From Micromonospora kangleipakensis (GTDB lineage Bacteria > Actinomycetota > Actinomycetes > Mycobacteriales > Micromonosporaceae), in the NCBI RefSeq assembly GCF_004217615.1, contig NZ_SHLD01000001.1:1-64000 (forward strand): a DNA stretch of 64,000 bases, read 5' to 3'. The stretch's first letter is position 1; each line of letters opens with the position of its first letter. Below, in pieces: positions 2,779 through 58,738 of this stretch. The notes below the pieces were generated by a model that saw only the letters and a list, made by a program, of their open reading frames with translations, did no database searches and had not been told where the DNA came from. A program made the translations under genes and the position numbers.

Positions 2779-4107
2779 CTACCGCAGGAACCCTTCGTAG
2801 TTCCGCTGCATGAGTTGGCTCTCGATCTGCTTCACGGTCTCCAGACCGACGCCGACCATGATGAGCACAGCGGTGCCGCCGAACGGGAAGTTCTGGAACT
2901 GCTGGCTGTCCAGCCAGATGAAGAAGAAGTTCGGCAGGATCGCGATGACGCCCAGGTAGAGCGCGCCCGGCAGGGTGATCCGGCTGAGGATGAAGTCGAG
3001 GTACTCGGCGGTCGGCTTGCCGGGGCGGATGCCCGGCACGAAGCCGCCGTACTTCTTCATGTTGTCCGCGACCTCGGTCGGGTTGAACGTGATGGACACG
3101 TAGAAGTACGTGAAGAAGATGATCAGCAGGAAGTAGATCGCGATGTGCTCCGGCGCGCTCGCCTTCACGATGTGGTTCTGGAACCAGGCCTGGGTCTTGC
3201 CCGGGTTGGTCTGGTCGAAGAACTGGAGCGCGAGCTGCGGCAGGTAGAGCAGCGACGAGGCGAAGATGACCGGGATGACACCGGCCTGGTTCACCTTGAG
3301 CGGGATGTAGGTGGAGGTGCCGCCGTACATCCGCCGGCCGATCATGCGCTTGGCGTACTGCACCGGGATTCGGCGCTGCGCCTGCTCGATGAAGGTGACC
3401 GCGGTGATGACCAGCAGGACCAGCACGATCACCAGGGCGAACATCCCCCAGCCCTTGGTGGTCTTGATCTTCCAGCCCTCGCTGGGCAGCCGGGCCGCGA
3501 TCGAGGTGAAGATCAGGACGGACATGCCGTTGCCGACGCCCCGGTCGGTGATCAGCTCACCGAGCCACATCACCACGCCGGTGCCGGCGGTCATCGTCAT
3601 GACCAGGATGGTCAGGGTCAGCCAGTCCGGGATCCCGGTGCCCTTGGGGACGATCGGGAACTGGTCGCAGCGGTTCTGGAACAGCTGCCCGGAGCGCGCC
3701 AGCGCCACGAACGCCGAGGACTGGAGGATGCCCAGGCCCAGCGTCAGGTAGCGGGTGTACTGGGTGATCTTCGCCTGGCCGGCCTGGCCCTCCTTGCGGA
3801 GCTGCTCCAGCCGCGGGATGACCACCGTCAGCAGCTGCAGGATGATCGACGCGGTGATGTACGGCATGATGCCCAGCGCGAAGACCGAGAGCTGCAGCAG
3901 CGCGCCACCGGAGAACAGGTCCAGCAGGTTCAGCACGCCGGTGCCACTGCCCTGGATGGTGTCGAGACACTTCTGCACGTTGCCGTACGAGACACCTGGG
4001 CTGGGCAGCGTTGCGCCGAGCCGGTAGACCGCGATGATGCCTACTGTGAACAGCAGCTTCTTGCGCAGGTCAGGCGTACGGAACGCACTGAGAAAGGCGG
4101 ACAGCAA
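2779..4107 (-). CDS. secY: protein translocase subunit SecY
   Basis: Forms the channel of the SecYEG translocon in the cytoplasmic membrane. The 442 residues give ten hydrophobic helices, with the plug/TM2a region around GSGTGVLNLLDLFSGGAL and the arginine-rich cytosolic loops (RRIPVQYAKR) typical of SecY. The start is TTG at 4107, preceded by AGGAGG six bases upstream; no ATG fits the N-terminus LSAFLSAFRTPDL. A terminator-like hairpin lies between rplO and secY, so secY-adk-map may have its own promoter in 4108-4290. A weak TAGAGT -10 is visible there on the minus strand. Confidence 0.96.
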   Translation of the reverse strand: MLSAFLSAFRTPDLRKKLLFTVGIIAVYRLGATLPSPGVSYGNVQKCLDTIQGSGTGVLNLLDLFSGGALLQLSVFALGIMPYITASIILQLLTVVIPRLEQLRKEGQAGQAKITQYTRYLTLGLGILQSSAFVALARSGQLFQNRCDQFPIVPKGTGIPDWLTLTILVMTMTAGTGVVMWLGELITDRGVGNGMSVLIFTSIAARLPSEGWKIKTTKGWGMFALVIVLVLLVITAVTFIEQAQRRIPVQYAKRMIGRRMYGGTSTYIPLKVNQAGVIPVIFASSLLYLPQLALQFFDQTNPGKTQAWFQNHIVKASAPEHIAIYFLLIIFFTYFYVSITFNPTEVADNMKKYGGFVPGIRPGKPTAEYLDFILSRITLPGALYLGVIAILPNFFFIWLDSQQFQNFPFGGTAVLIMVGVGLETVKQIESQLMQRNYEGFLR

Positions 4108-42529: not shown

Positions 42530-42781
42530 TCAGACCGGCCGAAGCCTGTCCACTCGGCCGAGTATCGAACTTGGGGGGACACCAAGGTCCGCCCGGTCGA
42601 AGTCGACCACTTTGTCGCTGAACGCCGCCCTGAGGAAGGACGTCTCCGCACCGCTGAACGTCGCCCGGACGAAGGACACTCTCCCTCCACTGAACGTCGC
42701 CCGGTGGAGCACACGGTCACGATCGAGGGGAAGGAGGTCGGGATCTTCGACCCGATGGGCAAGGACACGATCCTGTTCCAT
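42530..42781 (-). pseudogene. pentapeptide-repeat protein fragment
   Basis: The minus-strand reading contains RATFSGGRVSFVRATFSG, AETSFLRAAFSDKVVDF and DRADLG: seven or so five-residue A(x)F/L steps typical of pentapeptide-repeat proteins. A full protein would have tens of repeats; here only about 40 residues are left, with no credible start upstream. It lies just right of att copy C, so it is probably debris of island cargo. The region from 42782 to 43061 shows nothing recognisable. Confidence 0.5.
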
Positions 42782-55050: not shown

Positions 55051-56553
55051 TCACCGGAGCACCGCCACCAGGGCGTCCACCGGGCCGGTCGCGTAGCCGA
55101 GCACCAGCGCGGGAGCCAGGCCCACGGCGAGCGCGAGGAGCACCAGCGGGGCCCACGCGGTCAGCTCGGCCCCGGCCAGCCCGGGCGCCAGCCGGCCCAC
55201 CGCCGGGCTGGGCCGACCGTGGGTGACCTGCCGCAGCAGCCGCAGGAAGTACGCGGCGGTCAGCGCCCCGCCGATCGCCGCCAGCACCGCCAGGGTGGTC
55301 CAGAGCCCGCCGCCCCGCCGGACGGCGGCCACCACGGCGAACGCCTCGCCCCAGAAGCCGGCCAGCCCGGGCAGCCCGAGCGAGGCGACCGCGGCGAACC
55401 CGAGCAGCCCGGCCAGCCGGGGCGCCGTCTCCCGCAGCCCGGAGAGCTCGGCGAGCGCGCCGGTGTGGGCACGGTCCTTGACCGCCCCGGCCAGGAAGAA
55501 GAGCAGGCCGGTGATCACCCCGTGCGCGATGTTGCCGATCAACGCCGCCTGGATGCCGGTGGCGGTCAGCGTGGCCACCCCGAGCAGCACGAAACCCATG
55601 TGCCCGACGCTGGAGTACGCGATCAGCCGCTTCAGCTCGTCCTGAGCGAGGCAGACCAGGGAACCGATCAGGATCGCGGCGACGGCGAGCACCCCGAGCA
55701 CCGGGGCGGCCCAGCGGGCGCCCTCCGGGGCCACCCCGACCGCCACCCGGATCAGGCCGTACGTGCCCATCTTGAGCAGCACCCCGGCGAGGATGACGCT
55801 GCCGACGGTGGGCGCCTGGGTGTGCGCGTCGGGCAGCCAGGAGTGCAGCGGCCAGAGCGGGCTCTTCACCGCGAACGCCAGCGCCAACAGGGTGAACGCG
55901 GCGAGCTGGGTGCCCCGGGACAGGCCGGCCCCGCCGGTCAGCGTCACCAGGTCGGCGGTGCCGGCGGCGGCGACCACCACGTAGACGCCGACCAGCAGCA
56001 GCACCGAGCCGAAGAGTGTGTAGAGGGCGAACTTCCGGGCCGCCCGCCGCCGGTCGTCGCCGCCCCAGCCGGCGATGATCGCGTACATCGGAAGCAGGAC
56101 AACCTCGAAGAAGAGGAAGAAGAGCACCAGGTCGAGGGCGAGGAAGGTGCCGAGGATGCCCACCTCGACGACCAGCAGCAACGCGACCAGGACCCGACCG
56201 CTGCCGCCGCCGGGCACCCGCCACAGCGTGTACCCGCAGCAGAGCAGGGTGAGCAGGGCGGTGAGCACCACCAGCGGCCAGGAGATCCCGTCCACCCCGA
56301 GGTGGAAGCGCAGGTCGAGGCCGGGCACCCAGGGCAGGTCGAGCTGATGCCAGGGCTGCACGGCGGGACGCGGCCCGTAGCCGAACCAGCCGTGGTCGCC
56401 GCCGACCAGCGGCAGGGTGGCGAGCAGGGTCAGCGCGGCGGCGACCGCGCCGGTCAACCGGGCTGCCCGGTCGTGCGGGATGGCCGCCACCGCGACCGCG
56501 CCGAGCGCCGGCACGGCGATCACCGCGACCAGCAGGACCTGTCCCAGACTCAC
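55051..56553 (-). CDS. nuoM: NADH-quinone oxidoreductase subunit M
   Basis: Antiporter-like complex I subunit, 500 residues, about 14 helices. The channel lysine lies in FTLLALAFAVKSPLWPLHSW, and AYSSVGHMGFVLLGV and the glutamate in FFLFFEVVLLPMYAIIAGWG are typical. The start GTG 56553 overlaps the stop of the fourth mini-ORF upstream. The ribosome-binding site GAGGT is supplied by the end of the tandem repeat. The gap to nuoN holds a palindrome and a bridging ORF. Confidence 0.94.
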   Translation of the reverse strand: MSLGQVLLVAVIAVPALGAVAVAAIPHDRAARLTGAVAAALTLLATLPLVGGDHGWFGYGPRPAVQPWHQLDLPWVPGLDLRFHLGVDGISWPLVVLTALLTLLCCGYTLWRVPGGGSGRVLVALLLVVEVGILGTFLALDLVLFFLFFEVVLLPMYAIIAGWGGDDRRRAARKFALYTLFGSVLLLVGVYVVVAAAGTADLVTLTGGAGLSRGTQLAAFTLLALAFAVKSPLWPLHSWLPDAHTQAPTVGSVILAGVLLKMGTYGLIRVAVGVAPEGARWAAPVLGVLAVAAILIGSLVCLAQDELKRLIAYSSVGHMGFVLLGVATLTATGIQAALIGNIAHGVITGLLFFLAGAVKDRAHTGALAELSGLRETAPRLAGLLGFAAVASLGLPGLAGFWGEAFAVVAAVRRGGGLWTTLAVLAAIGGALTAAYFLRLLRQVTHGRPSPAVGRLAPGLAGAELTAWAPLVLLALAVGLAPALVLGYATGPVDALVAVLR

Positions 56554-56612
56554 GTCATTACCTCAGTTCGCGACTGCGGGGCTCGCAACCCCGGCTCACT
56601 CCTCGCGCTCAC
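56550..56612 (-). CDS. mini-ORF 4 of the nuoL–nuoM chain
   Basis: GTG 56612, 20 codons (MSARSEPGLRAPQSRTEVMT). It differs from the other three at the last two residues. Its TGA overlaps the nuoM GTG at 56553. Confidence 0.4.
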   Translation of the reverse strand: MSARSEPGLRAPQSRTEVMT

Positions 56613-56671
56613 GCCGCCACCTCAGTTCGCGACTGCGGGGCTCGCAACCCCGGCTCACTCCTCGCGCTCAC
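56609..56671 (-). CDS. mini-ORF 3 of the nuoL–nuoM chain
   Basis: GTG 56671, 20 codons (MSARSEPGLRAPQSRTEVAA). GAGG seven bases upstream. The stop overlaps the start of mini-ORF 4 as GTGA. Confidence 0.4.
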   Translation of the reverse strand: MSARSEPGLRAPQSRTEVAA

Positions 56672-56730
56672 GCCGCCACCTCAGTTCGCGACTGCGGGGC
56701 TCGCAACCCCGGCTCACTCCTCGCGCTCAC
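56668..56730 (-). CDS. mini-ORF 2 of the nuoL–nuoM chain
   Basis: GTG 56730, identical peptide to mini-ORF 3, with the same GAGG spacing and a GTGA overlap with mini-ORF 3. Confidence 0.4.
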   Translation of the reverse strand: MSARSEPGLRAPQSRTEVAA

Positions 56731-56789
56731 GCCGCCACCTCAGTTCGCGACTGCGGGGCTCGCAACCCCGGCTCACTCCTCGCGCTCAC
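56727..56789 (-). CDS. mini-ORF 1 of the nuoL–nuoM chain
   Basis: GTG 56789 overlaps the nuoL stop (GTGA). The ribosome-binding site is GGAGG six bases upstream, inside the end of nuoL. The peptide is identical to mini-ORFs 2 and 3, and its stop overlaps mini-ORF 2. Confidence 0.4.
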   Translation of the reverse strand: MSARSEPGLRAPQSRTEVAA

Positions 56790-58738
56790 GGTGCCCCTCC
56801 GATCAGCGCGACGGCGAGACCGATCAGCAGCGCGCCGGCGAGTACGCCGGCCGCCGCGCGGGGCAGGGCCGCGCGGTGCAGCGCGGCGAGCCCGCCGCCC
56901 AGGCCCGTCGCGGCGCGGCCGCTCCCCTCCACCAGGCCGTCCACCCCCAGCTCGTCGCCGGTCCGGACGGCCCTCGCGAGCGCGTTCGTCGGGCGTACGA
57001 CGAGGGCCTGCTGAACGTCGTCGAGCCGGAACGCCCGGGCGAACACCGGCCGCAGCGGACCCAGGAAGCGGGCCGGGTCGGCGGCCGGGTCCCGGCGCCA
57101 GCCCGCCCAGGCGACGCCCGCGCCCACCAGCAGCAGGACCAGCGGCAGCAGCACCGCCGGAGCGAGGTGGGTCAGCGAGTCGCCGAAGTCGGTCAGCTCC
57201 GCCTCGGTGGCCGGCGCGAAGATCCGCCCGATGAACGGCCCCCAGAAGGCGGCCAGGCCGAGCAGCGCGGCCGGGACCGCGAGCAGCAGCACCGGCCAGC
57301 GCATCAGCGCGGGCGGGTCGTGCGGGTGCGCCAGCGGGATCCGGGTCGCGCCGAAGAAGGTGCGCAGCAGCAGGCGGGTGGCGTACCAGGCGGTGACGGC
57401 GACGCCGAGCAGCCCGGCCAGCCAGACCAGCCAGCCGACCCACTGCGGCGTCGGACCGGCGCCGTCCAGCGCGGCGGCCTCGGCGACCGCGAGCACGCCG
57501 TCCTTGCTCCAGAAGCCCGACAACGGCGGCACCCCGGCGAGCGCGCCGAGACCGACCAGCGTGCACCAGAAGGTGACCGGCATGGCGGTGCGCAGGCCGC
57601 CCATCCTGGACATCAGCGTGGTGCCCACGGCGTGGATGACCGCACCCGCCGCGAGGAAGAGCAGCGCCTTGAACGCGGCGTGGGTGAGCAGGTGGAACAG
57701 CGCCGCGGTGGGCGCGCCGACGGCGAGGGCGCCGGTCATGTAGCCGATCTGGGAGACCGTCGACCAGGCCAGCACCCGCTTGATGTCGTCCTGCGCGGTG
57801 GCCGCGAACGCGCCCAGCAGCAGGGTGACCGCGCCCATCACGCCGAGCACGGCGAGCGCGACCGGGGCGCGCTCGAAGAGCGGGAAGAGCCGGGCCACCG
57901 CGTACACGCCGGCGGCGACCATGGTGGCGGCGTGGATCAGCGCGGAGATCGGGGTCGGGCCGGCCATCGCGTCCGGCAGCCAGGTGTGCAGCGGGAACTG
58001 GGCGCTCTTGCCGGCCACCCCGGCGAGCAGCAGCAGGCAGGCGGCGGTGAGCGTACCGGTGGAGTAGGGATGGGCGAGCACGTTGGCGATCTTGAAGCTG
58101 CCGGCGGAGACGCCGAGCAGCGCGATGCCGAGCAGGAAGCCCACGTCACCGACCCGGGTGACCAGGAACGCCTTCACCGCGGCGCCGGGCGCCTCGGGCA
58201 GCCGCCGGTCGTGGGCGATGAGGAGGTACGAGCAGATGCCCATCACCTCCCAGCCGACCAGCAGCATGATCAGGTCGCCGGAGACCACCACCACCAGCAT
58301 CGCGGCGGTGAAGAGGCTGATCTGCGCCGCGTACGGCGGGTAGCGGTGGTCCACCTCGACGTCGTCGTGCGGCCCGCGCTTCAGGTAGGCGATCGAGTAG
58401 ACCTGCACGGCCAGGGCGACCGCGGCCACGGCCGTGGCGACCAGCACGGCCACCCCGTCGAGCCGGTAGCCGAGGGTCACCCGCAGCCCGCCCAGGTCTA
58501 CCCAGGTGGTCGAGGCCTCGACCAGGTGGTCCACCCGGCTCAGCAGGGCCAGCGCGACGAGCAGCGCCCCGGCCGCGCCGGCCACCCCGAGCGCGATCGC
58601 CGCCCGCCGGGCCCGGTCCTCGCCGGTCGCCGCGCCGCGCGGCGACGGCGGCAGGAGCAGCCCCACCAGACCGGCGGCCAACGGCAGGCCGGGCAGCAGC
58701 GGTACGAGCGACGCCAGCCGCCCGATGCCCTCGCTCAT
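56786..58738 (-). CDS. nuoL: NADH-quinone oxidoreductase subunit L
   Basis: Largest antiporter-like subunit, 650 residues with about 16 helices and the long C-terminal part that runs along the complex. It shows LIMLLVGWEVMGICSYLLIA (channel glutamate), AGVAGKSAQFPLHTWLPDAM (lysine) and LAWSTVSQIGYMTGAL. ATG 58738 overlaps the nuoK stop (ATGA); the open frame to 59437 is nuoK/nuoJ in another frame. Its stop overlaps the first mini-ORF. Confidence 0.95.
   Translation of the reverse strand: MSEGIGRLASLVPLLPGLPLAAGLVGLLLPPSPRGAATGEDRARRAAIALGVAGAAGALLVALALLSRVDHLVEASTTWVDLGGLRVTLGYRLDGVAVLVATAVAAVALAVQVYSIAYLKRGPHDDVEVDHRYPPYAAQISLFTAAMLVVVVSGDLIMLLVGWEVMGICSYLLIAHDRRLPEAPGAAVKAFLVTRVGDVGFLLGIALLGVSAGSFKIANVLAHPYSTGTLTAACLLLLAGVAGKSAQFPLHTWLPDAMAGPTPISALIHAATMVAAGVYAVARLFPLFERAPVALAVLGVMGAVTLLLGAFAATAQDDIKRVLAWSTVSQIGYMTGALAVGAPTAALFHLLTHAAFKALLFLAAGAVIHAVGTTLMSRMGGLRTAMPVTFWCTLVGLGALAGVPPLSGFWSKDGVLAVAEAAALDGAGPTPQWVGWLVWLAGLLGVAVTAWYATRLLLRTFFGATRIPLAHPHDPPALMRWPVLLLAVPAALLGLAAFWGPFIGRIFAPATEAELTDFGDSLTHLAPAVLLPLVLLLVGAGVAWAGWRRDPAADPARFLGPLRPVFARAFRLDDVQQALVVRPTNALARAVRTGDELGVDGLVEGSGRAATGLGGGLAALHRAALPRAAAGVLAGALLIGLAVALIGGAP

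Follow-up and report, generated by a model that had tools for sequence, protein, structure and literature searches.

A dispersed repeat family at overlapping stop and start codons in Micromonospora, with insertion that probably spares translational coupling

Mycobacterial interspersed repetitive units (MIRUs), the closest described counterparts of the repeats considered here, insert into DTGA sites. A 2025 review (PMC12548453), which cites Supply et al. 1997 for these units, describes MIRUs as apparently mobile elements that insert at start codons and carry an internal open reading frame (ORF) coupled at -4, and suggests that this coupling keeps the effect on the gene small. The MIRUs of senX3-regX3 are given as 77 and 53 bp in another paper (PMC4213456); both lengths leave a remainder of two on division by three (2 mod 3), like most of the units described below. 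Here we analyze a 64,000-nt stretch of the Micromonospora kangleipakensis genome (contig NZ_SHLD01000001.1, positions 1 to 64,000; hereafter the window) in which a 59-bp unit is repeated four times between nuoL and nuoM. A repeat family dispersed through Micromonospora genomes includes this array as one of its sites. We hold it about 85% probable that the family consists of MIRU-like, short, non-autonomous mobile repeats that enter DTGA stop/start overlaps, each bringing its own cistron and ribosome-binding site, so that insertion spares the coupling of the interrupted gene pair.

The nuo cluster of the window lies on the minus strand, and the array proper occupies 56554-56789, that is 236 bp or 4 x 59; Tandem Repeats Finder reports a period of 59, 3.9 copies and 100% matches over 56560-56790. 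Units 1 (56731-56789), 2 (56672-56730) and 3 (56613-56671) are identical, and unit 4 (56554-56612) differs from them only in its tail (GAGGTAATGAC). Each 59-bp unit holds a 20-codon mini-ORF that begins with GTG and ends in a TGA overlapping the following GTG as GTGA; unit 1 translates as V/MSARSEPGLRAPQSRTEVAA and the last unit ends VMT. The GTG codons stand at 56789, 56730, 56671, 56612 and 56553, the last of these being the start of nuoM (55051-56553) inside the final GTGA. At the other end, the stop of nuoL (56786-58738; ATG at 58738, 650 codons plus stop in the ORF list) is the TGA at 56788-56786, inside the first GTGA of the array. GAGG lies 7 nt ahead of GTG codons 2 to 5, with unit 4 serving the nuoM start, and the first GTG has a GGAGG upstream that is supplied by the end of nuoL. 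The original prediction, which described four 59-bp units chained by stop/start overlap from nuoL to nuoM with a well-placed GAGG before the next GTG in each copy, is confirmed in both respects, with the bounds of the array proper as given here.

The unit is far from confined to this junction. A 41-base core occurs 53 times in the 7.27-Mb M. kangleipakensis genome (at most three mismatches) against 0 occurrences of the reversed pattern, which excludes chance. The repeat was found in this genome and in 24/24 same-genus relatives, and in 0/16 genomes from other families. In a sample of the family, 165 of 300 genomes and 27 of 44 genera carry it; a sample of the order yielded 49 of 298 genomes, comprising 44 from the species itself or its genus, two from the same family and three marginal matches elsewhere (E 3e-6 to 5e-4). 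Occurrence of the repeat centers on Micromonospora and its family. A search of 50,697 phage records gave no match at E 1e-5, the exact core had none in viral contigs, and among plasmid records one carries the repeat (Micromonospora terminaliae, 24.9 kb). No earlier description was found in literature searches of partial coverage, from which subscription papers were mostly absent, a weak negative. As far as these searches reach, the family is unreported; within the genus it is clear, well replicated and common.

Copies were listed with 16-17-base search patterns that gave one control match each, and 161 distinct arrays were assembled from the M. kangleipakensis genome (G000), three further genomes (G012, G018 and G022) and other loci. 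This set comprises arrays with a recognizable head lying away from locus ends; a few listed places of G012, G018 and G022 (for example one of G012) and two loci (L264 and L265) fall outside it. One copy is present in 97 arrays and two to six in 64. Beside the multi-copy arrays lie what we take to be genes for Mrp antiporter subunits, two-component proteins, bioF-like and bioD-like products, ketosynthases and a hisH-like product; one flanking product, MnhC, scores above its NCBIfam cut-off. The genes flanking multi-copy arrays look unlike one another.

Across these arrays the repeat keeps a fixed relation to the genes around it. Of the 161 arrays, 155 are followed by a coding frame that runs the same way (six unassigned); an upstream frame could be assigned for 126, and in 110 of these the TGA of the element head is the exact stop of the upstream gene. 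Judged from the last ORF of the element, the gene that follows sits at the closing -4 overlap in 122 of 155 arrays, in frame in 26 and in the remaining, coupling-breaking register in 7. When each combination of cluster, core and distance is counted once, 93 closing, 26 in-frame and 7 breaking entries remain of 126; the breaking class would hold 42 under equal frames (binomial p 5e-14 against 1/3, with clusters assumed independent in this and the other frame-class tests). Followed from the head, the chain of mini-ORFs enters the frame of the downstream gene in 147/155 arrays, in-frame fusions included. Simulated insertion of 1 nt left 121/155 chains delivered, the survivors probably being in-frame fusions for the most part, and insertion of 2 nt left 34/155. 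Both the relay geometry and the selection against coupling-breaking copies that had been proposed from the window are supported by these figures.

Variation within the family respects the same constraint. For cores of 45, 43, 40 and 49 nt the commonest total lengths are 59 (then 62), 59, 56 and 65/68 bp, respectively. Where core length changes by 2 nt the tail makes up for it, and the core-length variants alter the C-terminal reading of the mini-ORF and mostly keep the closing overlap. Units of 60 bp, the second commonest spacing, fuse in frame and form no relay, which leaves the class that would misdeliver ribosomes as the rare one. In several arrays of 60-bp units (L061, L083, L084 and others), units are joined in frame to the unit or gene that follows. 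Two longer core variants were seen at L264:1577-1641 and L264:4407-4473 (about 1.199 and 1.202 Mb in the M. kangleipakensis genome), ahead of genes that we take to be nuoH-like and nuoK-like; they seem to belong to a second nuo operon, and the first copy (65 bp) closes at -4.

Orthologous junctions with and without the element show what the sites look like when unoccupied. We compared nuoL/nuoM in 25 loci, the window and 24 relatives. No insert is present in 11 of these, where nuoL and nuoM meet in a plain DTGA overlap (for example in M. mirobrigensis, M. avicenniae, M. marina and M. inaquosa). One copy occurs in five loci (M. noduli, M. saelicesensis, M. chokoriensis, M. wenchangensis and Micromonospora sp. 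PLK6-60), two in three loci (M. acroterricola, M. arborensis and M. alfalfae) and four in the window; in M. halophytica (L167), a locus outside the parsed set, copies are also visible. A different insert, of 44, 53, 80 or 116 bp, occupies each of four further loci (M. sonchi, Micromonospora sp. CP22, Verrucosispora sediminis and strain KJ-029). These 80-, 116-, 44- and 53-bp inserts (L107, L111, L115 and L120) are unlike the 59-bp unit and sit at the same ATGA, within 116 bases before position 3001, and each is an ORF, beginning MSER... or MRHG..., with a -4 overlap at both ends. In the nine loci with a single insert the ORF closes at -4 on nuoM; in the two-copy loci the first ORF was followed by computation and the second by eye. 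A Catellatospora relative (L142) carries a different repeated sequence, ATGAGCGAGCGGAGCGAGC..., ahead of nuoM in the 150 bases before position 3001, perhaps another family.

We extended the comparison to three unlinked junctions in 30 genomes each, namely nuoL/nuoM, mnhB/mnhC and a third between an alanine racemase-like gene and a hydrolase gene (mnhB and alanine racemase-like being presumptive labels). Alignment of the upstream protein parsed 88 of the 90 loci, which share lineages in part and are not 88 independent events. The element is absent, with a -4 overlap in its place, from 59 loci and present in 22, and six have short inserts or remnants of 17, 26, 32, 38, 41 and 47 bp. One of the 59, at nuoL/nuoM (L328), is ambiguous, with a 50-bp insert in one parse and none by the upstream-protein alignment. 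The -4 overlap is kept in 87/88 loci, including 22/22 with the element and 6/6 with short inserts; the exception is L308. Among element-free sites, all 36 before mnhC or nuoM have the gene start at the overlap itself, and the 23 before the hydrolase gene have it within 12 nt of the overlap, in frame. Copy number at nuoL/nuoM ranges over 0, 1, 2, 3 and 4, and 17 of the 28 genomes parsed there have the plain -4 overlap without the element (L328 counted among them). The 32-bp insert, at nuoL/nuoM (L343), looks like a remnant of the element; it falls 27 bp, a multiple of three, short of 59 and closes at -4.

A trace of the insertion event itself may be preserved in the flanks. With one array taken per cluster, and 19 of 114 clusters omitted because their start or frame was unclear, the sequence just ahead of the first element agrees with that ahead of the gene start at positions -3, -2 and -1 with frequencies of 0.48, 0.63 and 0.59, against 0.31, 0.48 and 0.28 expected from shuffled pairing (95 clusters; p <= 5e-4). 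At position 0 the match is 0.80 against 0.73 expected (p 5e-4), and farther out, at -4 to -12, position -8 alone is borderline (p 0.04), all others having p >= 0.066. The 62 single-copy sites alone give the same pattern at -3 to 0. This suggests, statistically, a target duplication of about 3 nt just before DTGA, and the nuoL/nuoM pairs with and without the element are likewise suggestive of one.

We propose that a copy would enter immediately before the DTGA (ATGA or GTGA) that joins an upstream stop to a downstream start, along the direction of the genes, and would duplicate about 3 nt of target. The GTGA of its head would then serve both as stop for the upstream gene and as start of its own mini-ORF of about 20 codons, and its tail would provide a new ribosome-binding site, with the mini-ORF ending in the downstream gene's DTGA. 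Ribosomes may terminate and reinitiate at each overlap, translating some 20 codons per unit and still reaching the downstream gene, so that insertion would be nearly silent. Some sites could later expand into tandem arrays, and selection would remove copies whose length delivers ribosomes out of frame. The dispersal, orientation, element-free sites, stop/start geometry, frame-class depletion and flank similarity at -3 to -1 on which this rests are observed directly; transposition, translation and reinitiation, a mobilizing enzyme and near-neutrality for the host are what they would imply.

Several points weigh against this account. Translation of the mini-ORFs is argued from conservation of frame in the sequence. 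No transposase or autonomous partner was found, although no systematic search for one was made. The 161 arrays fall into 114 downstream-gene clusters, and sites in related genomes are not independent. Among the 16 non-modal entries without a clear start, three are closing, eight in frame and five breaking. The spacings within arrays (54, 56, 57, 59, 60, 61 and 62 bp) include the breaking class in 4 of 119 cases, but this is weak evidence because spacing is inherited through tandem duplication. The chain test accepted -1 besides -4 overlaps, and eight of the 155 chains fail, five ending without an overlap and three lost out of frame. The second of the two longer core variants (67 bp) does not close at -4, its stop falling 8 nt inside the gene. 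Finally, the proposed duplication is a statistical signal, and since the element head mostly begins with G even at genes that start with ATGA, the DTGA itself may lie outside it. Three heads that match exactly but have no matching tail (G000 positions 1199076, 1201906 and 3367068), considered as candidates for an autonomous element, proved to be core variants; this check covered exact heads, beside which roughly ten others carry a single mismatch and have no listed tail.

Two other explanations also accommodate the geometry. The arrays could be a domesticated regulatory relay, kept since copy number adjusts expression of the downstream relative to the upstream gene, NuoM relative to NuoL for example. 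The geometry would permit this, and copy number does differ between genomes (0-4 at nuoL/nuoM), but most orthologous junctions manage with a direct -4 overlap, the flanking genes look functionally unlike, and none of the three junctions keeps a constant copy number. We regard such a relay as improbable. The narrower claims of the original prediction, that the relay is specific to nuoL/nuoM and that array length tunes the NuoM:NuoL ratio, find no support, given the dispersal of the unit among many unlike gene pairs and the plain junction in most of the genomes parsed at this site. We give no better odds to a passive dispersed repeat whose closure reflects master elements that happened to be 2 mod 3, with no selection on coupling. 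Length 59 does dominate (64/116 terminal lengths), and much of the closing class is therefore a founder effect. Non-modal lengths nevertheless avoid the breaking class, with 21 closing, 17 in-frame and 2 breaking among the 40 with a clear start (p 2e-5) and 7 breaking of 56 with unclear starts included (p 3e-4). Every degraded or unrelated insert found at these junctions has a length of 2 mod 3, and the tail compensates for 2-nt changes in the core. The original prediction had named a common dispersed repeat inserted in any frame as evidence against itself; common and dispersed the unit is, but its frame is not arbitrary.

The product or the transcript of the unit could instead be what is conserved. 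A functional 20-residue peptide encoded many times would account for the ORF chain being open in nearly all copies. Yet substitutions show no third-position bias, mean entropy across 74 cores being similar at the three codon positions (0.178, 0.135 and 0.173), and in the core variants the C-terminal half is read in another frame; we rejected a conserved peptide on these entropies and think it very unlikely. An equally small chance attaches to a structured RNA between the genes, acting as a terminator, an attenuator or a hairpin for processing. The predicted fold of the window's unit does contain a CGGGGUU/AGCCCCG hairpin, but the fold energies of three variants equal those of shuffled sequences (z 0.61, 0.57 and -0.61), on which ground RNA structure was rejected, and the central part differs between core variants. 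A MIRU-like repeat whose insertion spares coupling remains the reading we prefer.

The genes around the array were identified with NCBIfam models. NuoL (TIGR01974, NADH-quinone oxidoreductase subunit L, scanned from 58744), NuoM (TIGR01972, subunit M) and NuoK are matched above the cut-offs, and three other ORFs have NuoI, NuoJ and NuoN as their top-scoring models, below the curated cut-offs. The closest relatives of NuoM are from Micromonospora, at up to 92-93% identity. Elsewhere in the window, at 42616-42704, Tandem Repeats Finder reports a 36-bp tandem repeat of 2.5 copies.

With copies by the dozen in each genome, orthologous junctions both occupied and empty, 0-6 copies per site and decayed forms, the family offers a large natural experiment. 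Its frame statistics suggest that ribosomes pass through the units and that -4 coupling is under selection. There is also a warning for annotation: downstream proteins after 60-bp units may carry MSARSE-type N-terminal extensions, so that annotated starts could be wrong, and MSARSE-type N-termini and tiny ORFs at gene junctions in general may derive from the repeat. More tentatively, several unrelated repeat families of Micromonosporaceae might independently have become 'cistron inserts', mobile through -4 overlaps by carrying a complete translated relay, a possibility we think less likely than its opposite. If it holds, cistron inserts would be a general class of which MIRU is one example, selection on the hand-over would keep lengths at 2 mod 3 during decay, and tandem copy number would offer evolvable steps in expression of the second gene.

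Other known systems resemble the Micromonospora repeat in part. REP/REPIN, ERIC, BOX/RUP and MITE elements are likewise short, dispersed and presumably mobilized in trans, and are typically palindromic. In contrast, the Micromonospora unit sits on a stop/start overlap, runs along the gene direction and has no fold stability above shuffles; we found no stable hairpin or long inverted repeats in it, and a 5-nt CGCGA...TCGCG pair is visible. Pairs of genes translated by termination-reinitiation across a -4 overlap, as treated in the review (PMC12548453), correspond to the element-free junction, into which the element interposes a dispersed cistron. MIRUs come closest. Like them, the Micromonospora repeat is a short interspersed unit, alone or in tandem (1-6 per array) at many loci, its internal ORF overlaps the upstream stop and the downstream start at -4, and element-free relatives retain the DTGA overlap that an insertion would have entered. 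It differs in its host, Micromonosporaceae instead of mycobacteria; its three common core lengths, an apparent flank duplication of about 3 nt, in-frame fusions as a class and the unrelated inserts that can occupy one of its junctions may be further differences. Because the likeness is one of described behavior and geometry and the host range differs, we do not class the family as MIRU. It nonetheless appears to work like one, which would extend MIRU-like behavior beyond the mycobacteria.

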